Below are positions 2-15,972 of a stretch of 16,009 bases of DNA, one piece after another. The notes under the pieces are model-generated. The model saw only the letters and a program-made list of their open reading frames with translations. It was not told the DNA's origin and did no database searches. Both the position numbers and the translations under genes were made by a program. Every line of letters starts with the position of its first letter. Position 1 is the first letter of the stretch. The DNA is from Bradyrhizobium sp. CCH5-F6 (GTDB lineage Bacteria; Pseudomonadota; Alphaproteobacteria; Rhizobiales; Xanthobacteraceae). The stretch lies in the NCBI RefSeq assembly GCF_001556045.1, contig NZ_LSIC01000136.1, forward strand, positions 1-16,009, in the 5' to 3' direction.

Positions 2-535
2 GAATGGTGGGCGAGATCATCTCGGAATGCTGGGCGACATCGAGCGGAATCCGCAAACACAGCACCAGCACCGGAAGTTACCCAGCTTAAGGTCAACGAA
101 AAGAAGTGGACCGCCACCTTGATGAAGGCCGGGTGGACGGTCCTGCCGAACGTCATCTTTGAACGCCAGCGTGCCCTGGGGCTGGATGCGATCGACATCA
201 ACATCATCCTGCACATCGCGTCCTATTGGTGGACGGCAGAAGGCAAGCCGTTTCCGTCCAAGCGAACCATCGCAGCGGCCATGGACATCGAACCGCGGAC
301 CGTTCAGCGCAGGATTGCTGCCATGGAAGCGGCTAGACTAATCAGGCGGGAAGAACGGCGCAGCTCAGCAAACGGTAGCCAGACCAATGTCTACCACCTG
401 GACGGCCTGATCGCGGCCGCCAAGCCATATGCGCTCGAAAAAATCCAGGAGCGTGATGAAAAGATTCAGGCAAAGGCCGCAAGGGCAAGCAGGAAGGGCA
501 AGCCCAAGCTTTCGGTTGTGAAGGGAGGGGCCTAA
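2..535 (+). CDS. Winged-helix (HTH_36-like) DNA-binding protein, 5' end outside window
   Basis: Probable DNA-binding regulator or replication-initiator-like protein. A helix-turn-helix is visible in the stretch reading PSKRTIAAAMDIEPRTVQRR (about 245-310), followed by a wing-like segment (LIRREERRSSANGSQTNVYHL) and a charged Lys/Arg/Ala-rich tail. The first usable starts are TTG 119 and ATG 122, and neither has a convincing ribosome binding site. The frame stays open to base 2 with no ATG, GTG or TTG upstream. Residues just before the ATG (KVNEKKWTATLMKAGWTVLPN) look like the conserved N-terminus of this family, so I think the true start lies left of the window. If the ATG is used the product is 137 aa. 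It ends 7 bp before the tRNA-like gene. Proteins of this type are frequent on plasmids and integrated elements; its exact role is unknown. Confidence 0.75.
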   Translation, partial: EWWARSSRNAGRHRAESANTAPAPEVTQLKVNEKKWTATLMKAGWTVLPNVIFERQRALGLDAIDINIILHIASYWWTAEGKPFPSKRTIAAAMDIEPRTVQRRIAAMEAARLIRREERRSSANGSQTNVYHLDGLIAAAKPYALEKIQERDEKIQAKAARASRKGKPKLSVVKGGA

Positions 536-542
536 CCAGCTT

Positions 543-649
543 CGCGCCGTAGCTCAACCGGATAGAGCCCTGCCGTTCTTTGAAATCCTAGCTGACACTT
601 GGAGAGTAGGGGCAGGAGGTTGCAGGTTCAAGCCCTGCCGGCGCGTCCA
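543..649 (+). tRNA. tRNA-Arg(UCU)-like gene with a 36-nt anticodon loop
   Basis: All tRNA parts except the anticodon loop are canonical. The 7-bp acceptor stem is perfect (543-549 with 639-645), followed by T8 and A9. The D-stem GCTC/GAGC (552-555, 565-568) closes a 9-nt loop containing GG. The T-stem GCAGG/CCTGC (622-626, 634-638) closes the loop TTCAAGC, and a T discriminator and CCA are encoded (646-649). The anticodon stem CTGCC/GGCAG (570-574, 611-615) closes 36 nt instead of 7. The loop starts GTTCTTT; taking T576 as U33 puts TCT in the anticodon positions, and the body resembles bacterial tRNA-Arg. Relative to a normal tRNA, 29 nt are extra (about 582-610). Within them CCTA (587-590) can pair with TAGG (607-610). 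It could be a tRNA with an insertion, a decoy, an attachment-site remnant or a decaying tRNA. The cloverleaf is seen directly; the amino-acid identity is inferred. Confidence 0.65.
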
Positions 650-677
650 TACCCCCGGTTTTTAGTTCACTTTGAAT

Positions 678-703
678 CGTGCAATCGTATTTGCGATTGC
701 ACG
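678..703. terminator. 10-bp hairpin downstream of the restriction-modification gene
   Basis: The repeats CGTGCAATCG (678-687) and CGATTGCACG (694-703) are perfectly complementary around a 6-nt loop. They lie just past the stop of the minus-strand gene ending at 710 and after the tRNA-like gene on the plus strand. No T-run follows on either strand, so this is not a textbook intrinsic terminator. It could act as a 3'-end stabiliser or a weak bidirectional terminator. A second, overlapping pairing (CACGGT 700-705 with ACCGTG 714-719) is mutually exclusive with it. Confidence 0.4.
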
Positions 704-709
704 GTCGTC

Positions 710-3607
710 CTACACCGTGAGTTTGTCGGTCGTGACCAAGTCTTTCAGCTTCTTTGCTGACGGCGGGATTCCAGGCCCAACGACCGGCTTGCCATCGGCT
801 TCAGCCGAGGCGACAGCTTCGTTCAGCTCCAGCAGTGCTTCCAACACATCGGCCTTCTTGGACATGCCGTAAGCGTCGCGTACGGCGTCGTCCAGCGCTT
901 TATGTGCTTTCTTCAGGGCGTGTTCTCCGGGCCCTTCGATCGCCCGATATAGCTCTCGTAGTGAAAGCTCATGCTTCGCCCGCAGATGTGATCGCAAGCG
1001 CCGCACCTCGACCGCCCGCTTGGCGACGAGGCGAACCGCCTCGGTTGTCGGCTGCTGAGGCCAGGGGAAGCTGTCGAAGACGGTATCCGACGTATAGCGA
1101 AAGTCTGCCTTCAGCGTTGAGCAGCGATTGATGAACCACTCCCAATGGATGCCCGACTGGAGGATACCGAAAGAGTAGTCATCTTCCAGCGCGAACACGC
1201 TCAGTGCATCATTCGGATGAATGGCCGTCGAAACAAATTCGAAGATCGGCCGGTGTGTGACCCGTGCACATACGATGTATCGCGACAGCGGGGCGAGGGT
1301 CCGCATCAGGTCTTCGCGCGGGTAGGACATCAGCCACCAGCGCTTTAAAAAGTTTTCGTGGTGCTTGTTGACCTTCGCCTCGGGATCGTCGTCCAAGGCT
1401 TCCTTATTTCGTGCACGCTCCTTCTTTGCCGCTTCCTTCCGTGCGGGGAGCACCGTCTGCTCCAGATGCTCAAACGGTTGCTTGAATGCCTTGGCCTTCA
1501 AAAGATCGCGCGGCTGAAAGTCGATGACGTATCTGCATTCGAGTTTGTCTACAGCGCCGAGGAAGTCGTCGGCGATCAAGAACGGGAAGAGCACCTGCGC
1601 GTTCGCCTTGTTGGCCTTCATCATCGCTTTCGCTTCGGTCGGCTCTAGAAGGAAACCCTTGTGACCGTGTGTCTGACCCTGGTAGCAGCCGCCTTTTTCA
1701 GCGTTCGCCTTGATGCGTTCCGCTTGGCTCACGTCAGTCGAAAACGAGAGCGAGGTATTGATCTCTTCCAAATCTTTGTAGTCCCAACCCCCGGCGGGGT
1801 CGTTTCCCGACTGGATGTATAGGCGTTTCTTGCCATCGTCCTCGCCCTTTACCCAGTTCACGATCGATACGTGGACGACCGCGTCGCCTGACCACGGCAT
1901 AGTCGAGACCGCTTCGGTGATCGTGCCATCATGCTTGACGATATGGTCAAGGCCGCTGATGCGGGAATAATTCTGGCGAATCGTGTTTGTGCCGACCAGG
2001 CCCGCCCTCTGACCCGGCTTAAGCTGGTCGTGCGCTTTCCTAAACCAGTAGACGCAGTAGTCGGCCCGTCCGTCGATATCCGGAAAAGCCCCTCGAATAG
2101 TGTTGAGATAGGCGCGTCCGAATTCTTGCTGGGCCTTGTTCTTGCTCTGGTACGGCGGATTGCCGATGATCGTATCGACCTCGGGCCATTCTGACAGCAG
2201 CGCGTCACGGCACAGGATATTTCCGTCGAGATTGTCGAGAGGAAGAGCATCATCTTCCGCCAAGGGCAATTCGATCTGGTCGCGCTCCAGAACATCGGCG
2301 GCCTCGTTCAAGGCGAGCTTTTTCGCGAGCATCAGCGTGACTTTTGTAAGCTCGACGCCGAAAGAGTCCCGATCAACGCCAAAAAATTGACGAGGACTAA
2401 TGAGTGACGTGGCCTGGGCCTGCTTCTGAATGGTCTTCCAGCTGAACTCTTTGTCCAGCCTGGCCATGAGTCTGATTTCGAGGCGTACCATCTCTCTGTA
2501 GGCGACATAAAGGAAATTGCCGCTGCCACAGGCCGGATCGAGCACACGGAAGTTGAGGAGCGCTTTTCTAATCTCCAACAGCTCCGTCATTGTCTTTGCG
2601 GCGTCAATACGCTCCCGCCAGGGGCGCACGATCGTAGGCCCGACGATCCGTTGAATGTCGGCCTCGTGAGTGAAATGCGCGCCATAGGCGTGCCGTTCTC
2701 CCTTATCCATGCTCTGCTGGAAGATGGTGCCGAAGATCGCTGGATTTATCTTGGCCCAGTTCTGCCAAGCGGCCCCTTCATCCTTCTTGCCGAGCAGCTC
2801 CAGCTCTTTCTTGGTCAGCTCGACGGGCGCAACCGTGGCAAAAAGACCGCCGTTGAAATAGGGAACGCCTTTGTAGCGACCGCCCTTGGCAGCTGTCTTG
2901 TTGTTCATCTGCTGGAACAGGCCGCCAAAAACATCGTATGAGTTTTGCCCGTGCTCAAGGCAATCCTGCACCAGTCTCAGGGTCGTTCCGGCCGGCATCA
3001 TGTCGATGTCTTCGGCAAACATCGCGACGACCGCCTGCAACACGAAACGCTGCGCCTGCTCTCGCGGAACGCCGCGTGCGACCATCGATCGGAACAGCTG
3101 AGCGACCTTTGCTGCAGCAATACGCGAAACCTCTTCGCGGTCGTTGCCGAAAAGAGGGTCCGGATTGTCCGCGAACAGGAAGTTTAGCGCCGTGTAGCGG
3201 TTCGGCAGGTCTTCGAGCCGCACGATATCCACGGGCTCGTTGAGCTGCTTGTCGAAATCGTAAATCCAGAACTCTTTGAAGTTGCACAGAACGACGTAAC
3301 GAGGGCGATTGGGAACCGCGTTCAGCCAGTAGTCGAAAGCCTGTTGGTAATGAAGATGCAGCTTTTCGCTGCCCTTCTTCATTTCGATAAGAAGTCGCGG
3401 CTTCCACACCAGGTCGGCGAAGTTCGTTCCTTTGCCTGAAGCCTTTTTCACTCGGTATTCGAGTTCGGCACCGGCCTCTTTGTAACCCTTATGGCCGAAA
3501 GCCTGGAATAGCCGGTCGCAAAAAACCTGAGCTTCTCCCTTCTCGTCACCCTTCAGGGTTTTTGCGTAAGCGACGAATGCCTCAATTCCCTTTGCGAGTT
3601 CGCTCAT
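710..3607 (-). CDS. MmeI-like (Type IIL/IIG) single-chain restriction-modification enzyme
   Basis: Predicted bifunctional enzyme (965 aa) that transfers a methyl group from SAM to adenine N6 and cuts unmethylated DNA. The N-terminal nuclease core is D65-x9-E75-M-K77, the same D-x9-E-x-K spacing as MmeI. The methyltransferase domain has motif I DPACGSGNFL (357-366) and the catalytic motif NPPY (483-486). The C-terminal third, including SFGILQSGIHWEWF and the TSDTVFDSFPWPQ stretch, fits the target-recognition region of this family. Length is close to MmeI (about 920 aa). The ATG at 3607 overlaps the stop of the upstream gene as ATGA, which points to translational coupling. No lesion is visible. 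Some relatives annotated as class I DNA methyltransferase lack the nuclease, but here the catalytic residues are present, so I favour full restriction-modification. The recognition sequence cannot be read from the protein. Confidence 0.9.
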   Translation of the reverse strand: MSELAKGIEAFVAYAKTLKGDEKGEAQVFCDRLFQAFGHKGYKEAGAELEYRVKKASGKGTNFADLVWKPRLLIEMKKGSEKLHLHYQQAFDYWLNAVPNRPRYVVLCNFKEFWIYDFDKQLNEPVDIVRLEDLPNRYTALNFLFADNPDPLFGNDREEVSRIAAAKVAQLFRSMVARGVPREQAQRFVLQAVVAMFAEDIDMMPAGTTLRLVQDCLEHGQNSYDVFGGLFQQMNNKTAAKGGRYKGVPYFNGGLFATVAPVELTKKELELLGKKDEGAAWQNWAKINPAIFGTIFQQSMDKGERHAYGAHFTHEADIQRIVGPTIVRPWRERIDAAKTMTELLEIRKALLNFRVLDPACGSGNFLYVAYREMVRLEIRLMARLDKEFSWKTIQKQAQATSLISPRQFFGVDRDSFGVELTKVTLMLAKKLALNEAADVLERDQIELPLAEDDALPLDNLDGNILCRDALLSEWPEVDTIIGNPPYQSKNKAQQEFGRAYLNTIRGAFPDIDGRADYCVYWFRKAHDQLKPGQRAGLVGTNTIRQNYSRISGLDHIVKHDGTITEAVSTMPWSGDAVVHVSIVNWVKGEDDGKKRLYIQSGNDPAGGWDYKDLEEINTSLSFSTDVSQAERIKANAEKGGCYQGQTHGHKGFLLEPTEAKAMMKANKANAQVLFPFLIADDFLGAVDKLECRYVIDFQPRDLLKAKAFKQPFEHLEQTVLPARKEAAKKERARNKEALDDDPEAKVNKHHENFLKRWWLMSYPREDLMRTLAPLSRYIVCARVTHRPIFEFVSTAIHPNDALSVFALEDDYSFGILQSGIHWEWFINRCSTLKADFRYTSDTVFDSFPWPQQPTTEAVRLVAKRAVEVRRLRSHLRAKHELSLRELYRAIEGPGEHALKKAHKALDDAVRDAYGMSKKADVLEALLELNEAVASAEADGKPVVGPGIPPSAKKLKDLVTTDKLTV

Positions 3608-4917
3608 CCCGCTTTTCTCTCGGTGTCAGCGTCATGCTCCAAAAGCTGCACATCTAGGCTCGGAATCTCCGGCATGGCCTTGCCGGCGATGGCCTGAAGG
3701 TCTCCGACCATGCCAACCGTGGAGTCGACGACCGCCAATATCTGCGTCTCGCGCTTGGCCCACTGGCGCCCCATGAATTTGCGTTCCCTATCGAGATCGT
3801 CGCGCATGTCGTTGAATTTCTCGACTACGGCTTCCACCCGCTGCTTGAATTTGGTTCCGGTCAGGTAATGGTAGACCTGCTCCATCTTTGTCTGCTGCCC
3901 TTGCTGGACGAGACGAGAGCTGCTCACGTCGACCAGCGCTTGGCGCAGAGCGACGGCAACCGGCAAGGCACAGCGCGGGTGAGCCACCCATATGCCGTCA
4001 ACCAGGTCAAAATGCTCAATGTGTTTGGGCAGGGTATGAGAAACGATGAGCGCCACATCGGCCCCGGAGCGGCGCTGATCGTCGCGCAACTTGGCCAGCC
4101 ACCCATCGCTCCAGGCTTTGGTGCGCTTGGTCTCCCACAGGATGATGCCAGCAGGCTGGCCAAGCTGGCCATTGACCTGCTGGATCATATCGGCACCAAG
4201 TTCACCCTTGCCGACGGGCTCAATGACGTCCATGGGAAAACGGCTCTTCAGAAGTTCCTCAAGCTCAAGTTCGAGAACCTCACCCTGCGACTGCTGCGAT
4301 CCTTGCTCGGCCTTACGCTTCAGCTCCTCGATGGTCCGCGTCATCGACTCTATGGTCTGGTCTTTCTCCGCAACCCGCAGCCGTGCGGCCTCATCGGCTT
4401 CCTGCCGGGCTTTTGCGTGAATCTGGTCGACCGACGCTTGGACGCGCTTTTCGATGGTTAGATCGAGTTCACGCTTTTCCTCATCGAGCGCCCGCTGCTT
4501 GCGCATCAGCTCGGCCTGGGCCTGCTGCGCTTCGGCAAGCTTGAGGTTGTTGGCCTCCAACGCTTGGCGGAGCTCGGCCGTCTCATCTGCCTTCGCCTTC
4601 AATTCGGCTGCGGCAGCTTCGCGCGCCTTTTTGGCCTCAGCGGCAACCAACTGGCTCCTCTCCGCGGCCAGGCGTTGCTTGACTTGGTCATCGAGCGTTT
4701 CCCGATCCTTAGCGAGCTGTTCGCGCTGCTGGCTCAGCTCCTCGGATTTGCGCGCGACCTCGGCATCCTTGCTGGCAAGCTGTTCCTGAAAACGTTGGCG
4801 AGTCTCCGCGAGGAGGGGGGCCGCCAGTGACTCCGTCAGCCGGATTTCGTAGTTGCAATTGGGGCAGTTGAGGAGGGGTTCGTGCGCAGTTCCAGCCACG
4901 GTTGCTTTGAATGACAT
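3604..4917 (-). CDS. DUF2130 coiled-coil protein with PD-(D/E)xK-like core
   Basis: A 437-aa protein matching the DUF2130 type. The N-terminus has one CPNC knuckle (C18, C21). Residues about 35-205 form a long Glu/Ala/Lys/Gln-rich coiled coil. A globular C-terminal half begins around GEVLELELEELLKSRFP. It contains D243 (GELGADM) and E262-T-K264 (ILWETKR), the layout of a PD-(D/E)xK nuclease fold. I infer DNA binding or cleavage; the biochemical role of DUF2130 is not established as far as I know. The start ATG is preceded by a G-rich Shine-Dalgarno-like stretch. It begins 16 bp after the toxin-antitoxin remnant and overlaps the restriction-modification gene by 4 bp, so the two were probably selected to be made together. 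It could be an accessory nuclease, a sensor or a structural partner of the restriction enzyme. Confidence 0.85.
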   Translation of the reverse strand: MSFKATVAGTAHEPLLNCPNCNYEIRLTESLAAPLLAETRQRFQEQLASKDAEVARKSEELSQQREQLAKDRETLDDQVKQRLAAERSQLVAAEAKKAREAAAAELKAKADETAELRQALEANNLKLAEAQQAQAELMRKQRALDEEKRELDLTIEKRVQASVDQIHAKARQEADEAARLRVAEKDQTIESMTRTIEELKRKAEQGSQQSQGEVLELELEELLKSRFPMDVIEPVGKGELGADMIQQVNGQLGQPAGIILWETKRTKAWSDGWLAKLRDDQRRSGADVALIVSHTLPKHIEHFDLVDGIWVAHPRCALPVAVALRQALVDVSSSRLVQQGQQTKMEQVYHYLTGTKFKQRVEAVVEKFNDMRDDLDRERKFMGRQWAKRETQILAVVDSTVGMVGDLQAIAGKAMPEIPSLDVQLLEHDADTERKAG

Positions 4918-4933
4918 GAACCCCCCAGTACCT

Positions 4934-5476
4934 TTAGGCCGGAATGAACGTGATCCGGCCGGCCTCGCCGCGCTTCCTGTGCGGCTTTACCGTTATTTCG
5001 ACATCCTGGTCGAACGCTGTCAGCATCCGCATCAGCTTTTCCACTGAAACCAGCTTAAATTGACCCCGGAGCAGCTTGGATAAGTCAGGTTGTTTCATTT
5101 CGACCAGTCTAGCGGCTCGGTCTCCTTTTGTTGCCTTATAAATAGACTCGGCGTCCCGCAGGCGTTGCCGAATCAGGTCAACGTGCCTTTGCGGTGTGGC
5201 AATTCCCCTGGTGGATTTCTTCTGAAACGCGTGCAGGACGTACAGGACCCTCCAGCCGCGTTGTGTAGGCCGTCCGATAGGTATCGCCGTCAAAGTTGTC
5301 GCGAATCTCCAGTACACCGCTGAAGCCTTTAAGCGGCTTCGCATTGCGCGGATGTTCGCCGAGCTGCGCTTCAAAAAGGGACTGGCCGATCTCGCTTCAG
5401 GCGGCCACGGGGAACGGGGTGCCCCCAGCCTGCAGCTTGACAATACAACCTGACAGACATCCACTGCACAATCCAT
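4934..5476 (-). pseudogene. Degraded HigB/HigA-type toxin-antitoxin pair, fused remnant
   Basis: The 180-aa frame is a composite of two broken genes. Its middle (VLYVLHAFQKKS...HVDLIRQRLRDAE) is the C-terminal half of a RelE/HigB-like toxin. The preceding toxin part is in another frame: SEIGQSLFEAQLGEHP and GVLEIRDNFDGDTYRTAYT read from about 5395 to 5250, with the shift at about 5245-5253 and a stop (TGA 5399-5397) just upstream. The frame then runs without a toxin stop into AARLVEMKQPDLSKLLRGQ and VSVEKLMRMLTAFDQDVEI. That is the second half of a HigA/XRE antitoxin with its N-terminal part deleted. The pair therefore lost active toxin by at least one frameshift, and antitoxin by deletion-fusion. 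The C-terminal HTH half might still be expressed as the first cistron of the defence operon and might bind its old operator; that is speculation. Confidence 0.75.
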
Positions 5477-5517
5477 GATTTTATCTATCTATACCTACAA
5501 TCGGTATTGGGGTGGCC
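5477..5517. promoter_or_regulatory. AT-rich divergent promoter region
   Basis: This 41-bp gap separates the minus-strand operon from the plus-strand ATPase gene. It is clearly more AT-rich than its surroundings (TTTTATCTATCTATACCTAC) and is the only place from which both transcripts could start. TATACCT on the plus strand and GATAAAAT on the minus strand are possible -10 elements. No convincing -35 pair was found, so the exact promoters are not assigned. The HTH half of the toxin-antitoxin remnant could be the local repressor if it is still made. Confidence 0.4.
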
Positions 5518-8202
5518 ATGACAGGCGACAGCGATTTATTTGATTGGTGTGCGGCACGTCCCAGCTGGCAACAGGAAGCCATCCGGCTCTTGACCGCCAA
5601 GCCCAAGCTGGACGCTGAAGAACTCGACCAGCTTGAGGAGGCAGTAAAGAGGGACGCAAGGATCGCTGCGGGAACGTCGCCGGTCTGGCCTGCCTTGACA
5701 AAGACGCATCTCAAGGCCGGCAACAAGTTCGCTCCCGTCACCGTTCTGGGCTCGATCGGCCCGCTTCGCAACATCGACCGTCTGGCGGCGGGGCAACCAC
5801 CGATCAAGTTTGCTATCAATGGCATCACACTCATCTACGGGGCCAACGGTTCGGGCAAGAGTGGCTATTGTCGCGTCGCCAAGAAAATCTGCCACTGTCT
5901 GCATGACGTGACCTTGCGCGGCAACGTGTTCGAGCCGGCCTCAGCCGATCCACGCGAAGTCACCCTGACCTTCCGTGTCGATGGGGAAAAGGCCCGTACC
6001 GTCGTTTGGGATGATCGGAATGCGCCGCCGCCCGAACTGGGCCGCATATCCGTCTTCGACAGTGATGCGGCCGGGCTTTATGTCGACGCTGAGCGCAACA
6101 TCGAGTTTTTACCCTTCGAACTCGCACTGCTGACCAATCTCGCTGAGGCGGTCCGCACCCTAGACGGGCGCTTCAGGGCCGAAGAGGCGCGATTGGTCAA
6201 AGCCCACCAGGCCCCATTGCCGCAGGGATATGACAAGCCCACGAAAATCTCGACCATGCTGGCAAGGCTGAAAGCTGACGAACAGCTACCAGACGAGGCT
6301 TCCATGCGGTCTTTCGCCGTGTGGGAGGAGAAGGACGAGGCTGATCTTCAGGCAATCAAGCTGGAGCTGGGGAGCGACCCGGCACTTGTTAAGAGGGTCA
6401 AGGAGGCGGCCAAGTCAGCGGTCGATACGTTTGTCGCCGATGCGAACGCTATCTTTAAGGCCCTCGGCAACGATGGCCTAGCGGCCCTGAAAGAGGCGCG
6501 GCAGAAGGCTGCTCAGTCACGGGACGCCGCGAAAGCAGCCGCTTCCGCCCTTGCAGCTGAATCAGCGGTCCCGCAGCTGGGCAGCGATACTTGGCGTCAG
6601 ATGCTGATGTATGCGCGCGATTTTGCGGCCGAAGCGTTTCCCACCGTTGAGCCGCCCCAGCTGGCTAATGCCAATACGTGCGTGCTCTGTCATCAGCCGC
6701 TCGATGCGCAGGCACAAGAACGCTTGGCCGCTTTTGATGCGTATGTTGAAGGCCGCGCCAATGCCGACGCTGAGGCCGCCAAAAAGGATTTTGGCGAAAG
6801 GGCCAAAGCGATCCTCGACCTCAAAATCGTTGGCGGTCAGGACATCAAGGACAAGCTGGTTAATTTCGTCGAAGCATCGAAACCCCGCCAAGCGCTGGTG
6901 GATCGGCTTGACCAGTTTTACACCGCCAGCCAAGAGCGCCACAGTCTTGCTTCATTAGCCATTAAGGCCGTCGACTACGCGAGTCTTGGTGGTCTCCCAG
7001 ATCTAGACCGCATTGTGATCGACGATCTGGTGGCAGAAGCCACTGTCCTCGCGAAAGAGATCGACGACCTGAAACCGACGCCGGATCAGGCCGCCAAACG
7101 CATTCAGCGTCAGCAAAAGCTCGATGAACTTGAAGCGCGGAAGAAGTTCTCCGCCGATATTGAAACGTTCGTGGCGCGGCGCAACTCGCTTGAGCTGCTG
7201 GTCAAGACCAAGGCTTGCACGACAGCCTGTTCGGTGGCCGGCATTACGTCGCTCATTACGCGTATGCGGCGCAAGGTTTTGACCACATCCCTGCAAAATA
7301 GCCTTCAGGACGAGATCGGCGCCCTCGACCTCGGGCATCTGCCGCTAAAACTGTCTGACCGGGGAGAGGTGGGCAAGAGCAAAGTCCAGATCGGGCTGGA
7401 GGCGAAGCAGAAGGTCGGCAAGAACAGCGACATTCTGAGCGAAGGGGAAAAGCGCGCACTTGCTCTGGCAGGCTTTCTTGCCGAGCTGAAAGAGGTCGGC
7501 GTGAGGCACGGCATCGTCGTTGATGATCCGGTATCGTCGCTTGACCACGCCCGGATGGAGGCGGTTGCAAAGCGGCTGGTGAAAGAGGCAAAAGCCGGTA
7601 GGCAAGTGATCATCTTCACGCACAACCTGTTCTTTCATCACGCCGTATTCGAAGAAGCTAAGGATATGAAGGTCCCCCTGCGGCAAGAATGGATTGCCAA
7701 GCATGGTGACGGACGCTTCGGCATTATCGATGACGGCCAGCAACCGTGGGTTTCGATGAGCGTTACAAAGAGGCTTCCGATCATCGATGGTCTGCTCAAA
7801 GCAAAGAAGCCAACGTATTCGGAAGCCGACGAGGCCGAGCGATCGTTTGTGACTAGTATCTACACCAAGATGCGCGAGACCTGGGAGCACACCATCGAGG
7901 AAGTTCTATTCGCCGGCGTGGTCGGGCGATTTCGACCAAACGTGGCCACCATGCAATTAAGAGCAGCCCATGTCGACAAGTCGGACTATGAGACGGTGTA
8001 CGCTGGAATGACGCGGTGCTCCAAGTACTCCGGCCATGATCAAGCCGCAGGCGTCCCCGCCGATCTACCCAAGTTCACGGAGATCGAGGCGGACTTTAAC
8101 AAGCTCAACTCATATGTGGTTGCGGCGAATACCCGCCGGAAAAAACTCGAGGACGAAGGCCGCAATTCTGAAAAGAGTCCGATGCCAGCTGACACTCTTT
8201 GA
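5518..8202 (+). CDS. Zinc-hook AAA ATPase of the PrrC/RloC (AAA_13) type
   Basis: An 894-aa ABC/Rad50-like ATPase. With the GTG at 5512 counted as residue 1, it shows: Walker A GANGSGKS at 110-117; coiled-coil arms with a zinc-hook knuckle C390-V-L-C393; an ABC signature LSEGEKRALAL from 642; Walker B GIVVDDPVSSLD at 667-678; and an H-loop FTHN with H704. This is the order of RloC and the ATPase half of PrrC, bacterial anticodon nucleases that guard restriction systems. The C-terminal domain holds R788-x3-E792 followed by H820 and H842. EcoPrrC uses Arg-x3-Glu plus a later His as its ribonuclease triad, so a tRNase activity is plausible but not shown. ATG 5518 is chosen over GTG 5512 because MTGDSDLFDW fits the family's N-terminus; both have only G-rich upstream sequence. 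The gene is divergent from the restriction-modification operon. A generic SMC-like defence ATPase without RNase activity is the alternative. Confidence 0.88.
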   Translation: MTGDSDLFDWCAARPSWQQEAIRLLTAKPKLDAEELDQLEEAVKRDARIAAGTSPVWPALTKTHLKAGNKFAPVTVLGSIGPLRNIDRLAAGQPPIKFAINGITLIYGANGSGKSGYCRVAKKICHCLHDVTLRGNVFEPASADPREVTLTFRVDGEKARTVVWDDRNAPPPELGRISVFDSDAAGLYVDAERNIEFLPFELALLTNLAEAVRTLDGRFRAEEARLVKAHQAPLPQGYDKPTKISTMLARLKADEQLPDEASMRSFAVWEEKDEADLQAIKLELGSDPALVKRVKEAAKSAVDTFVADANAIFKALGNDGLAALKEARQKAAQSRDAAKAAASALAAESAVPQLGSDTWRQMLMYARDFAAEAFPTVEPPQLANANTCVLCHQPLDAQAQERLAAFDAYVEGRANADAEAAKKDFGERAKAILDLKIVGGQDIKDKLVNFVEASKPRQALVDRLDQFYTASQERHSLASLAIKAVDYASLGGLPDLDRIVIDDLVAEATVLAKEIDDLKPTPDQAAKRIQRQQKLDELEARKKFSADIETFVARRNSLELLVKTKACTTACSVAGITSLITRMRRKVLTTSLQNSLQDEIGALDLGHLPLKLSDRGEVGKSKVQIGLEAKQKVGKNSDILSEGEKRALALAGFLAELKEVGVRHGIVVDDPVSSLDHARMEAVAKRLVKEAKAGRQVIIFTHNLFFHHAVFEEAKDMKVPLRQEWIAKHGDGRFGIIDDGQQPWVSMSVTKRLPIIDGLLKAKKPTYSEADEAERSFVTSIYTKMRETWEHTIEEVLFAGVVGRFRPNVATMQLRAAHVDKSDYETVYAGMTRCSKYSGHDQAAGVPADLPKFTEIEADFNKLNSYVVAANTRRKKLEDEGRNSEKSPMPADTL

Positions 8203-11061: not shown

Positions 11062-11099
11062 CGTTGGATTCGTCCCGGCCTCCGACAAGGAGGCAAAGC

Positions 11100-12221
11100 A
11101 TGAATGTACGTTATCGGGTCGAATTGAGCCAAGCCGAGCGCGACGAACTGACGGAGATGCTCGGCAGCGGCAAGAACGCCGCCCGCAAGCTTAAGCGGGC
11201 GCAGATTTTACTGGCGGCCGATGGAGGCTGCCGCGACGAGGAGATTGCCCGGACCGTGAGTGTCAGCCTCTCCACCGTCGGCCGGACCAGGCGCCGCTTC
11301 GTGGAAGGCAATCTGGAGCGGGCCCTGAGCGAGGAGCCGCGTCCGGGCGCTGAGCGCAAGCTGACCGGCAAGGAGGAAGCCCTGCTGGTGGCGACCGCAT
11401 GCGCCAAGCCGCCCGCTGGCTGCAAACGCTGGACGCTGACGCTGCTGGCCGACACGATGGTCAAGCTCACCGATCACAACAGTCTGTCGGGCGAGACCGT
11501 GCGTCGCCGGCTGGCCGAGAACGACCTCAAGCCGTGGCGCAGGGACATGTGGTGCATTCCCCATGTCGACGGCGAATACGTTGCCCGCATGGAGGACGTG
11601 CTCGACCTCTACGCCGAGACGCAGAATCCCGCCCGGCCGCTGGTCTGCTTCGACGAGACCCCCATCCAGCTGATCGGCGAGGTGCGCCAGCCGGTCCCGG
11701 CCCAACCGGGACAGCGCGAGCGCTACGATTACGAGTATCGCCGCAACGGCACCGCCAATCTCTTCGTCACCTTCGATCCACATCGGGGCTGGCGCAACGT
11801 CAAGGTCACCGACCGCCGCGCCGCCGTGGACTACGCCCACTGCATGCGTGATCTCGTCGACGTCCATTATCCCGACGCCGCCTGCATCCGTGTCGTGCAG
11901 GACAATTTGTCGATCCACAAGCCTGGGGCGCTGTATGAGGCCTTCGCGCCCGCCGAGGCCCGGCGCATCCTGCGCCGCCTCGAATTCCACTTCACCCCGA
12001 AGCACGCCAGTTGGCTCAATATGGTCGAGTGCGAGATCACCGTGCTACAGCGTCAGTGTCTCGGCCGCCGCATCGACGATCCCAAAAGGCTCCGAAACGA
12101 GATCGCAGCATGGCAAAAGAGGCGGAATAAAACCCGAGCCCGCATCAAATGGATGTTCACAACAGACAAAGCCCGCACCAAACTCGGCCGCGCCTATCCA
12201 GCCACCGCCAAAGAGTCATAA
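11100..12221 (+). CDS. IS630-family DDE transposase
   Basis: A 373-aa transposase. An N-terminal HTH region (DEEIARTVSVSLSTVGRTRR, about 46-65) is followed by a second HTH around SLSGETVRRRLAE. The RNase H-fold core has the full triad: D185 (CFDETPIQL), D268 (VQDNLSIHKPG) and E310 (WLNMVECEI). ATG 11100 has an ideal AAGGAGG 6 nt upstream, so the in-frame TTG at 11064 is not used. It cuts at the terminal repeats and joins to TA dinucleotides. There is no frameshift or truncation, so the element may still be active. The LexA-like gene faces it across a 38-bp shared regulatory gap. Confidence 0.95.
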   Translation: MNVRYRVELSQAERDELTEMLGSGKNAARKLKRAQILLAADGGCRDEEIARTVSVSLSTVGRTRRRFVEGNLERALSEEPRPGAERKLTGKEEALLVATACAKPPAGCKRWTLTLLADTMVKLTDHNSLSGETVRRRLAENDLKPWRRDMWCIPHVDGEYVARMEDVLDLYAETQNPARPLVCFDETPIQLIGEVRQPVPAQPGQRERYDYEYRRNGTANLFVTFDPHRGWRNVKVTDRRAAVDYAHCMRDLVDVHYPDAACIRVVQDNLSIHKPGALYEAFAPAEARRILRRLEFHFTPKHASWLNMVECEITVLQRQCLGRRIDDPKRLRNEIAAWQKRRNKTRARIKWMFTTDKARTKLGRAYPATAKES

Positions 12222-13196: not shown

Positions 13197-13254
13197 TTCC
13201 GCCACACTGCGTGGCAAGATGAGGTCGTCGCTGACCCAAACGAAGGAGCCGCCC

Positions 13255-14295
13255 GTGGAAACGATTGTTCGCATCGGTTTGGATACGTCAAAGAGCGTAT
13301 TTCAGTTGCATGGCGTTGACGGGACCGAGCAGCCGGTTTTACGGCGTAAGTTGAGGCGCGGACAGGTTTTGGAGTTCTTCAGTCGTTTGCCGCCTGCGCT
13401 TGTCGCGATGGAGGCGTGCGGGGCATCGCACTATTGGGCGCGGGAGTTGCAATCGCTCGGGCACGAGGTGGTGATGATCCCGCCGCAATATGTCAAACCG
13501 TATGTGCAGCGCGGGAAATCCGACGCTGCGGACGCCGAGGCAATTTGCGAGGCGGCAAGCCGGCCGAAACTGCGCAAAAACTTTGTGCCTATCAAAAGCC
13601 CCGAGCAGCAGGGCGCACAGATGGTGGCGCGCGTGCGCAACCAGTTCATCGGTAGGCGGACCCAGCTCGCCAACTCGATCCGCGGCTATGCCGCGGAATT
13701 CAGCTTTACAGCGCCCAAGGGACTTTCGCGGCTTCAACAATTGCTGATCGACATTCAGGCTGACGCGACAGTCCCGGAGTTGACGAAGGAGTTGGTGGAC
13801 GCTTTGGCAACAGAACTGACGCGCGTCGATGACCAGATCGCCAAGCTCGACAAGAAGCTCATGCAACTACACCGGAGTAACGAGATGAGCCGACGGCTGG
13901 CGGCTATTCCGGGCGTTGGTCCGATCGGCGCGACGCTGCTGTCGATCAAGGTCGTGGATGCACGCGCGTTCAAGTCGGCAAGAAATTTTGCCGCCTGGCT
14001 TGGCCTGACACCAAAGAATCACTCGACGGCCGGAAAGAACCGGCTTGGCGTGATTACACGCGCCGGTGACGGCATGTTGCGAACCGTTTTGGTGGCCGGC
14101 GCGACGGCTGTGATCGCAGATATGCGCCGACGGGAAAGTCGCTCCTGGCCTTGGCTGAAAGACATCATCGCACGCAAGCCGCCGAAGCTGGTGGCCATAG
14201 CGTTGGCAAACAAGCTGGCGCGGATCGCCTGGAAACTGATGGTCAGCGGCGAGCGGTACCGACCTGCAAGCAACGTCATGCCGATGCCGACATAG
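13255..14295 (+). CDS. IS110-family (DEDD) transposase/recombinase
   Basis: A 346-aa recombinase. The N-terminal RuvC-like domain has the full DEDD set: D10 (GLDTSKS), E53 (VAMEACG), D90 and D93 (KSDAADAE). A coiled-coil spacer leads to the C-terminal Transposase_20 domain with AAIPGVGPIGATLL and the NHSTAGKNRLG motif, whose serine (S257) is the expected nucleophile. GTG 13255 is chosen because AAGGAG lies 6 nt upstream and family proteins start at this point; ATG 13219 would add 12 unrelated residues. IS110 enzymes use an RNA guide encoded in the element to choose target and donor sites. No lesion is seen. Confidence 0.95.
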   Translation: METIVRIGLDTSKSVFQLHGVDGTEQPVLRRKLRRGQVLEFFSRLPPALVAMEACGASHYWARELQSLGHEVVMIPPQYVKPYVQRGKSDAADAEAICEAASRPKLRKNFVPIKSPEQQGAQMVARVRNQFIGRRTQLANSIRGYAAEFSFTAPKGLSRLQQLLIDIQADATVPELTKELVDALATELTRVDDQIAKLDKKLMQLHRSNEMSRRLAAIPGVGPIGATLLSIKVVDARAFKSARNFAAWLGLTPKNHSTAGKNRLGVITRAGDGMLRTVLVAGATAVIADMRRRESRSWPWLKDIIARKPPKLVAIALANKLARIAWKLMVSGERYRPASNVMPMPT

Positions 14296-14833: not shown

Positions 14834-15238
14834 TCAAAGGGACGGCGCTGACCAGTCGTATGGCAACTCTGCGCGTGCCAACGGTGTGCTCGGTTCTTCG
14901 GTTCGAGGGTGGCGTGGCTGCCAAGCCAATTGTATTGGGGTCGTCGCGGGGCGTCGGCCCGCCTTGGCGCATTTGCGGCGGCGCAGCCGGCTGGCGAGAT
15001 CGTGCACGAAGGTGGCCGGCGGATGCTTCACCGCCGCGAGGTTGACCTCGCTCGGCGTCTTGCAGCGCGCGCACCTGATCTCAAGCCAGGGGTGGCCTCC
15101 ATTTACGGCGAATGCGCGCTCCGTGTCCCCGTCACCGTCGCGGAGAGTGAGAGTGCGGGCCGGGTCCGACGCGACGGGTTGAAGATCGGGGGAGAGGCCT
15201 CCGGCGCCCGTCGCGGAGAACCGCGATGTCTGGACATA
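14834..15238 (-). pseudogene. Probable remnant of a zinc-ribbon hypothetical gene
   Basis: The minus strand is open from 15238 to the stop at 14834 with strongly gene-like, GC-ending codons up to about 14950. It reads RTLTLRDGDGDTERAFAVNG, then HPWLEIRCARCKTPSEVNLA and FVHDLASRLRRRKCAKAGRR. This looks like a small zinc-ribbon protein. The first knuckle CARC is intact, but the second is R-R-K-C, with CGC where a Cys codon (TGC) would be expected. There is no ATG, GTG or TTG in the frame before GTG at about 15033, which is inside the domain, and the tail after GRRPATT loses any pattern. I infer a decayed gene antisense to the ArdC leader. I cannot name the family. Confidence 0.4.
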
Positions 15239-15972
15239 CCGCCCGAGTTCGTGCCGGCAACGACCGAACGAGCCTTTACACCGAAATCACTGACAAGATC
15301 ATAGCCGAGCTGGAGGCCGGCCGTTTTCCGTGGGTTCAGCCCTGGGGGACGGCGTCGATCAAGGCGCCGCTCGCGATGCCGCGCAACGCGTCGACGCAGC
15401 GCGGATATTCCGGGATTAACGTGCTGATCCTATGGGGTGCCGTTATCGAGCACGGCTTTTCGGGACAGAGCTGGCTTACCTTCCGCCAGGCACTCCGGCT
15501 CGGCGGCCATGTCAGAAAGGGCGAGCGGGGAACGACCGTCGTCTATGCCGATCGCTTCACCCCAGACGACGAACGTCGGCGCGCCACGGAGGCCGGCGAG
15601 GAGCCGGGTGCCATCCCGTTTCTCAAGCGCTTTACCGTCTTTAACACGGATCAATGCGATGGCTTGCCCGAGGATGTCGCTGCTTTGGTGGTCCCGCCGC
15701 CACCAGGCCAGATTGAGCCGCGAGCCGAGGCCTTGATCGCGGCGACCGGCGCGGATTTCCGCATCGGCGGTGCGCGCGCCTACTACAACACGACGGGCGA
15801 TTTCGTACAGGTGCCGCCGCCGGCTGCCTATTTCGAACCGATCAACTGGCACCGGACCGCTTTCCATGAGCTCGGTCATTGGACCGGCCAGGCATCCCGC
15901 CTCAACCGCGACCACACCGGTTCGTTCGGCTCAAAATCATACGCGCGCGAAGAGCTGGTCGCCTTATCTTGA
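15226..15972 (+). CDS. ArdC-type antirestriction metallopeptidase, C-terminally truncated
   Basis: ArdC-like proteins pair an N-terminal ssDNA-binding domain (DUF1738) with a zincin-like peptidase domain and protect incoming plasmid DNA from restriction. Here LYTEITDKIIAELEAG, FPWVQPWG, RGYSGINVLILWG and SWLTFRQALRLGGHVRKGER match the N-terminal domain. The zinc motif H214-E-L-G-H218 is present. ATG 15226 has GGAG 7 nt upstream. The product stops after YAREELVALS (248 aa). Relatives I know continue EELVAEM and run to about 300 aa, so the third metal ligand region and C-terminus are missing. Sequence after about 15963 is unrelated, suggesting an insertion or rearrangement whose rest lies beyond the window. 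Probably inactive as a peptidase, though DNA binding could remain. Confidence 0.8.
   Translation: MSGHTARVRAGNDRTSLYTEITDKIIAELEAGRFPWVQPWGTASIKAPLAMPRNASTQRGYSGINVLILWGAVIEHGFSGQSWLTFRQALRLGGHVRKGERGTTVVYADRFTPDDERRRATEAGEEPGAIPFLKRFTVFNTDQCDGLPEDVAALVVPPPPGQIEPRAEALIAATGADFRIGGARAYYNTTGDFVQVPPPAAYFEPINWHRTAFHELGHWTGQASRLNRDHTGSFGSKSYAREELVALS

Follow-up and report, generated by a model that had tools for sequence, protein, structure and literature searches.

An RloC-type ATPase and a DUF2130 protein recur together in a group of Bradyrhizobium loci, here within a proposed defence cluster that lies beside a tRNA-like RNA

We analysed a 16,009-nucleotide stretch of DNA from Bradyrhizobium sp. 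CCH5-F6 (contig NZ_LSIC01000136.1; the whole stretch is called the window below), which is most of a 23.3-kb contig in a draft genome that is 84% complete. The window encodes, in order, a helix-turn-helix (HTH) protein (+), a tRNA-like RNA (+), an MmeI-like restriction-modification (R-M) enzyme (-), a DUF2130 protein (-), a relic of a HigB-HigA toxin-antitoxin pair (HigBA; -), a 41-bp gap, an RloC ATPase (+) and a 108-aa open reading frame (ORF; -) (Table 1). The original prediction had described this region as a possible integrated defence locus made of a restriction enzyme, a DUF2130 nuclease, a guard ATPase and an altered tRNA. This parts list is real, although it overlooked the HigBA relic. 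Integration holds best for RloC and DUF2130, with or without HigBA, which recur together in Bradyrhizobium; the MmeI-like enzyme is not a regular partner, and the tRNA-like RNA goes with the HTH gene. Each defence gene falls in a known family, and our searches returned no named system that combines RloC, DUF2130 and MmeI.

Table 1 Features of the window, with coordinates and supporting evidence
Feature	Position	Strand	Evidence
DnaD-like/replication-initiator-like HTH protein, 138 aa from TTG; frame open to window edge	119..535	+	Pfam, PHROGs
tRNA-like RNA, cloverleaf	543..649	+	Rfam tRNA; stems by hand-set segments; diverged copies
MmeI-like Type IIL/IIG R-M enzyme, 965 aa	710..3607	-	Pfam, PADLOC, motifs
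DUF2130 protein, 437 aa: CPxC motif, long helix, predicted PD-(D/E)xK-like domain	3604..4917	-	Pfam E 1e-74, alignments, model, structure comparison
HigB-HigA toxin-antitoxin relic, 180 aa, deletion-fused	4934..5476	-	Gp49/HigB-type and HTH_37/HigA-type Pfam fragments; comparison with L088
Gap	5477..5517	.	41 bp, relic ORF start (5476) to RloC ATG (5518)
RloC: Rad50-like ATPase, zinc hook, C-terminal anticodon-nuclease triad	5518..8202	+	Pfam AAA_13, PADLOC, motifs
Small ORF, 108 aa	8211..8537	-	Convergent with RloC; no match in Pfam or PHROGs
Transposase	11064-12221	+	
Transposase	13219-14295	+	
ArdC-like anti-restriction protein	15226-15972	+	ArdcN 4e-43, zincin metallopeptidase 2.5e-29

The ATPase had been predicted to be of the PrrC/RloC zinc-hook type, and by the published sequence definition it is an RloC, with a predicted anticodon-nuclease activity. 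That definition comprises a split ATP-binding cassette (ABC) ATPase, a CxxC zinc hook and an Arg-x3-Glu-x36-52-His triad, often with a Ser before the His (PMC2610378). All three are present: the ABC motifs GANGSGKS (Walker A), LSEGE (signature) and DDPVSSLD (Walker B/D-loop), the hook at C388/C391, and the triad R786-x3-E790-x49-H840 with a Ser two residues ahead of the His. Hook and triad are both invariant across 26 sequences, down to 39% identity. The same features, including a triad that has a 49-residue spacing here, are common to the RloC proteins described by Davidov and Kaufmann (2008; PMC2610378) and Klaiman et al. (2014; PMC3874168). An alternative in-frame start, GTG at 5512, precedes the ATG at 5518. 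The best PADLOC matches were to the PDC-S06 models (545.8 bits), which presumably represent a single-gene candidate, with PrrC far weaker (30.6 bits). Some PADLOC candidates, PDC-S06 included, are said to coincide with systems named by DefenseFinder in a passage of PMC11811056 that does not contain the mapping itself. The structural model (predicted template modelling score (pTM) 0.46) places helices on both sides of the zinc hook, and the predicted fold is Rad50/SMC-like (Foldseek top match Rad50, E 5.6e-8), with no PrrC or RloC structure among the best 50 fold matches; a sequence search of the Protein Data Bank (PDB) matched SMC and Rad50 proteins only. The original prediction had also taken such ATPases to accompany Type I restriction systems, which is overstated for RloC: the abstract of PMC2610378 calls the linkage rare, and a passage of that paper has only eight of 72 mapped. 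Here RloC is instead accompanied by DUF2130 and the HigBA relic, and the Pfam matches of the window proteins scanned included no hsd family, and hence neither Type I R-M genes nor a PrrC-style linkage to a Type Ic locus.

The DUF2130 protein, whose predicted identity was borne out by its Pfam match, is likely a DNA nuclease with a predicted PD-(D/E)xK-like domain. Its candidate nuclease residues are D243 and E262-x-K264, a D...ExK arrangement conserved in alignments, and the modelled domain (pTM 0.36) resembles McrC in structure comparison. A PDB sequence search gave one match, at chance level (E 0.95). The family is abundant, as all 7999 of the 7999 scored protein-database candidates were matches, yet in the literature searched its name turned up in three papers, once in each.

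To follow this protein across RloC loci, we built a DUF2130 profile from four members and searched 84 loci with it: 75 genome loci with RloC homologues and nine plasmid loci. It matched 15, namely L009-L017, which are every genome locus with RloC identity of at least 52%; five Bradyrhizobium plasmid loci (L087-L091, those examined from the six Bradyrhizobium plasmid records counted with RloC); and L020 (Litoreibacter), in which DUF2130 lies immediately downstream of RloC. Because L009 and L010 (labelled Bradyrhizobium) and L011 (labelled Afipia) are 99.97-99.99% identical to the window over 12.8-16 kb, these and the window were taken as one observation. With identical copies merged in this way, RloC homologues of at least 52% identity were accompanied by DUF2130 in 11 of 11 distinct loci on the stretches examined. 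The two genes adjoin in eight of these, separated by nothing more than HigBA-type genes or their remnants (the window type, L013, L014, L015, L017, L087, L088 and L091), and other genes separate them in L012, L016 and L090. We therefore consider it a defensible claim that, within one group of RloC loci of Bradyrhizobium type, RloC and DUF2130 recur as a pair. Approached from DUF2130, 28 of the 34 non-window matches were examined, and in at least six of them the next gene encodes an ABC/RecF/AAA_13-type ATPase (L159, L160, L161, L180, L181 and L182); because nine neighbours were picked by eye for Pfam, six is a minimum and gives no unbiased frequency. Among the RloC rows P0002-P0032 of the protein database, 11 of 31 have a longest contig equal in size to that of a DUF2130 row (among 120 listed); at least two of these contigs are whole chromosomes, so this evidence is indirect. 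No description of an RloC-DUF2130 pair was found in the literature, where most subscription journals and bioRxiv preprints lay outside coverage, so that the absence is weak evidence.

The sequence between the two genes retains traces of a further unit. In pUSDA94-1 (L088), both HigB (123 aa) and HigA (113 aa) lie between DUF2130 and RloC; compared with this plasmid, the window is missing ~150 bp where HigB and HigA meet, and what remains of HigB is split over two frames, leaving a fused, frameshifted relic and not an intact HigBA. More diverged HigB and HigA matches occupy the same position in L013 and L014. The 41-bp divergent gap of the original prediction is confirmed in length, but the gene facing RloC across it is this relic and not DUF2130. 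Giant ORFs of 1570-1998 aa adjoin RloC or DUF2130 in L013, L014 and L016, those of L013 and L016 being DUF4011/DUF3320 helicase-nucleases.

The MmeI-like enzyme is well defined by its sequence. As in other MmeI-like Type IIL/IIG enzymes, a single chain combines an N-terminal D-x9-ExK nuclease, an N6 methylase and a target recognition domain: Pfam recognizes MmeI_N, MmeI_hel, MmeI_Mtase and the end of MmeI_TRD (profile positions 146-206 of 207 only), the PADLOC model REase_MTase_IIG matches residues 1-963 (1792 bits), and the nuclease motif D65-x9-E-x-K and the methylase motifs PACGSG and NPPY are kept. Its predicted coupling to DUF2130 also stands, as the DUF2130 stop and the MmeI start overlap by 4 nt. 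In this it differs from its two closest other homologues (62-63% identity; L154 and L155), in which tblastn over 16 kb each found neither DUF2130 nor RloC, a search that a distant DUF2130 subfamily could escape. Among the 75 genome loci, the intact enzyme was seen only in the near-identical copies L009-L011, with a 25% relative in L054, and at E <= 1e-60 matches are present in 5 of 248 family genomes, counting the one that contains the window. L017 and L088 carry a C-terminal MmeI stub (residues 902-965) directly after DUF2130; the DUF2130-MmeI arrangement thus predates their split from the window lineage.

That stub and the 4-nt overlap are what one would cite for a single three-part system in which MmeI silences RloC, as EcoprrI does PrrC, and DUF2130 couples the two. 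We regard such a system as improbable, as MmeI is missing beside RloC and DUF2130 in the other relatives examined, and published work reports that RloC has an internal switch of its own and becomes active in hosts deficient in R-M. The original prediction had proposed looking for conserved co-occurrence of all three proteins in other genomes; only RloC and DUF2130 recur, intact MmeI joins them in near-identical copies alone, and the trio was rejected as a conserved system. The defensible claim is that MmeI is a lineage-specific addition; beyond the near-identical copies and the stubs, it tracks neither RloC nor DUF2130 in the loci examined.

Taken together, we propose that the core of the locus is a unit of RloC and a DUF2130 nuclease of PD-(D/E)xK type, often with HigBA between them (broken here), to which an MmeI-like enzyme was added in this lineage, the whole residing in a mobile cluster; we hold the chances that this is correct to be about even. 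What we observe are domains, motifs, conservation and gene association, and from these we infer every activity and interaction. MmeI would methylate host DNA and cut unmethylated incoming DNA, and DUF2130 would cut or trim DNA. Should the invader persist or breaks build up, the RloC ATPase would sense DNA ends, and its C-terminal domain would then cleave tRNA, halting translation until the threat passes. The pairing of an ATPase with a DNA nuclease recalls Rad50-Mre11/SbcCD and McrBC, with the RloC model Rad50-like and the modelled DUF2130 domain McrC-like. Unlike those systems, the window ATPase has its own predicted RNase domain; a complex of the pair is hypothetical, and the likeness of DUF2130 to McrC is one of modelled structure.

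Several observations weigh against this proposal. The structural models have pTM values of 0.36 (DUF2130) and 0.46 (RloC), and DUF2130 had no match at E <= 0.001 when Foldseek was used by itself. Since the 11 distinct loci are related, they do not amount to 11 independent events. At RloC identities of ~43% or less, DUF2130 was found in 1 of 66 genome loci, 29 of which end at contig ends, and in 0 of the 37 loci with full flanks; a Bradyrhizobium with a 36% RloC (L037) is among those without it, and the profile had no match in four more distant plasmid RloC loci (L092-L095). Common residence in defence-rich DNA could also give proximity without joint function. On this alternative, MmeI, DUF2130 and RloC are independent systems that hitchhike in a shared mobile region. 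Apart from the scarcity of DUF2130 at distant RloC loci, it draws on the variable neighbours, which include DUF4011/DUF3320 helicases (L013, L016), Fic (L090, L157) and TerB/DEAD sets (L088, L089, L091), and on the MmeI gene being a stub or absent in relatives. However, RloC and DUF2130 stay close in all 11 distinct loci through this turnover of neighbours, even with distant DUF2130 subfamilies, and DUF2130 is itself sparse, present at E <= 1e-20 in 29 of 248 family genomes. Hitchhiking is a credible account that we rate at roughly one chance in three.

The altered tRNA at the other end of the locus proved to be a real tRNA-like cloverleaf. Rfam RF00005 matches it at 42.4 bits (E 5.3e-8; gathering score 29) in a scan of 480-760, with no call from default ARAGORN or from a whole-window Rfam scan. 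The acceptor (7/7), D (4/4) and T (5/5) stems are complete and the anticodon stem has 5 bp, but 36 nt separate its halves in place of the ordinary 7-nt loop. The element shares the acceptor, D and T arms of tRNA-Arg genes and differs by 29 extra nt in the anticodon arm. Of 150 ordinary tRNAs in the loci retrieved, tRNA-Arg(tct) gives the highest score with its two ends, a ranking biased by the retrieval of some loci by similarity to it, and its folding energy is not unusual against shuffled sequences (z -1.07; 31 of 200 fold as well or better). Copies in B. yuanmingense (L017) and pUSDA94 (L088, L089) are 85-86% identical over 96 nt, with the added segment also changed.

The upstream HTH gene matches DnaD_N (1.2e-8) and HTH_36 (3e-8) in Pfam and a replication initiation O-like family in PHROGs (1.1e-8), and its ratio of non-synonymous to synonymous substitutions (dN/dS) is 0.07 against pUSDA94-1. 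Other HTH genes of this family with a comparable RNA behind them were found on plasmids from Caulobacter (L126), Methylocaldum (L128), Spongiibacter (L137), Xanthobacter (L140) and Paraburkholderia (L135), in genomes G414 (L133) and G743 (L145), and in contigs L230 and L239 of a viral collection. Of 179 plasmid records with an HTH match, 19 were examined: the RNA follows in eight, from alpha-, beta- and gammaproteobacteria (two pUSDA94, L126, L128, L135, L137, L140 and L187), and was not found in 11 (L127, L129, which ends 173 bp beyond the HTH gene, L130, L136, L138, L139, L141, L142, L186, L188 and L189). The HTH gene occurs in 6 of 398 genomes; of the five besides the window, one has the RNA (G743, L145) and four do not, and none was found at the viral HTH locus L190. 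HTH genes without the RNA are thus at least as common as those with it in the plasmids and genomes examined. A pattern search for the extended arm matched 4 of 398 genomes, among them G788, without an HTH gene upstream; the match in G911 was discarded as an ordinary tRNA plus a chance match. Among the viral contigs there were 57 pattern matches, of which 20 (18 distinct) are extended by the intron mode of ARAGORN, some doubtfully, and two (L230, L239) have the HTH gene. Eight viral-collection loci (L198, L203, L210, L214, L217, L222, L224 and L241) carry tRNA-like elements with ARAGORN additions of 34-47 nt and no HTH match upstream, and L187 (Burkholderia cenocepacia) has two in tandem after its HTH gene (1921-2045 and 2102-2228), with additions of ~50 nt.

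Nine alpha- and gammaproteobacterial copies were measured: all nine have a complete T stem, eight a complete acceptor and seven a complete D stem. RNAalifold, run on a MAFFT alignment, recovered the acceptor and T stems, with both-side changes in 7 of their 12 pairs, and mis-paired the middle where the alignment slips. Minimum-energy folds of 4 of 12 copies (Caulobacter, Methylocaldum, G414 and Spongiibacter) place a five-base bulge, UUCUA or UUCGA, beside a hairpin; the arm is less regular elsewhere, and two copies (pUSDA94 and B. yuanmingense) do not fold as a cloverleaf. The bulge triplet could stand for Arg (UCU, UCG) or, with a shift of one base, for Glu (UUC), and ARAGORN identity calls differ by copy (Ser, Glu, Arg, His, Ala or Thr). 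In six Prokaryotic Genome Annotation Pipeline (PGAP) records the locus-tag series misses one number at the RNA position, which suggests an RNA gene omitted from the annotation table; L137 has the RNA without a skip, and L142 a skip with no RNA found. An integration-site scar is not supported, as complete copies of the element are found behind the HTH gene in other lineages too. The addition is short for known group I or II self-splicing introns, and its layout does not resemble the bulge-helix-bulge of archaeal-type introns.

The original prediction had included this RNA in the possible defence locus, and it might serve there as a decoy, target or antidote of RloC, whose reported targets are tRNAs cleaved in the anticodon loop. 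Only 60 bp separate its end from the MmeI gene, and two diverged lineages (the window type, and L017 with L088) have it close to RloC. Yet other lineages carry it behind the HTH gene; tblastn found no RloC in six short stretches that carry it (L126, L128, L133, L137, L140 and L145; the rest of those replicons lay outside the search), and 8 of the 11 distinct RloC loci (>= 52%) lack it on the stretches examined. We consider its membership in the defence unit very unlikely. The HTH gene and the altered tRNA instead seem to be a neighbouring, separate plasmid unit and no needed part of the defence cluster. Tentatively, and with appreciable doubt, we suggest that they are an undescribed mobile-element unit whose RNA derives from tRNA-Arg, with an extended anticodon arm that in some copies forms a clear hairpin beside a bulge with an Arg- or Glu-like triplet. 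Its role may be that of a decoy, a sensor or a spare when anticodon nucleases such as RloC are at work, or it may regulate replication of the plasmid by way of the HTH protein. No description of such an RNA was found in the literature, a weakly informative absence given the coverage noted above.

Of the two transposases, one has a DDE_3 domain, which we take to be IS630-like, and the other is of IS110 type. The ArdC-like gene lies 7 kb from RloC; the RloC paper links two RloC genes to ardC (PMC2610378). DNA identity of the 108-aa ORF is 72-82% in L017, L088 and L087, with a dN/dS of 0.014 against L087. That the region is a mobile defence cluster built from separable units is a view we hold with even confidence for and against.

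A recurring DUF2130 partner would turn the PDC-S06-type RloC family into a unit of two or more genes within one bacterial group, and partnership with RloC would give the abundant DUF2130 family a functional setting. The tRNA-like RNA, which we regard as the most novel part and as meriting its own study, offers a test case for encounters between mobile elements and defences that cut tRNA.

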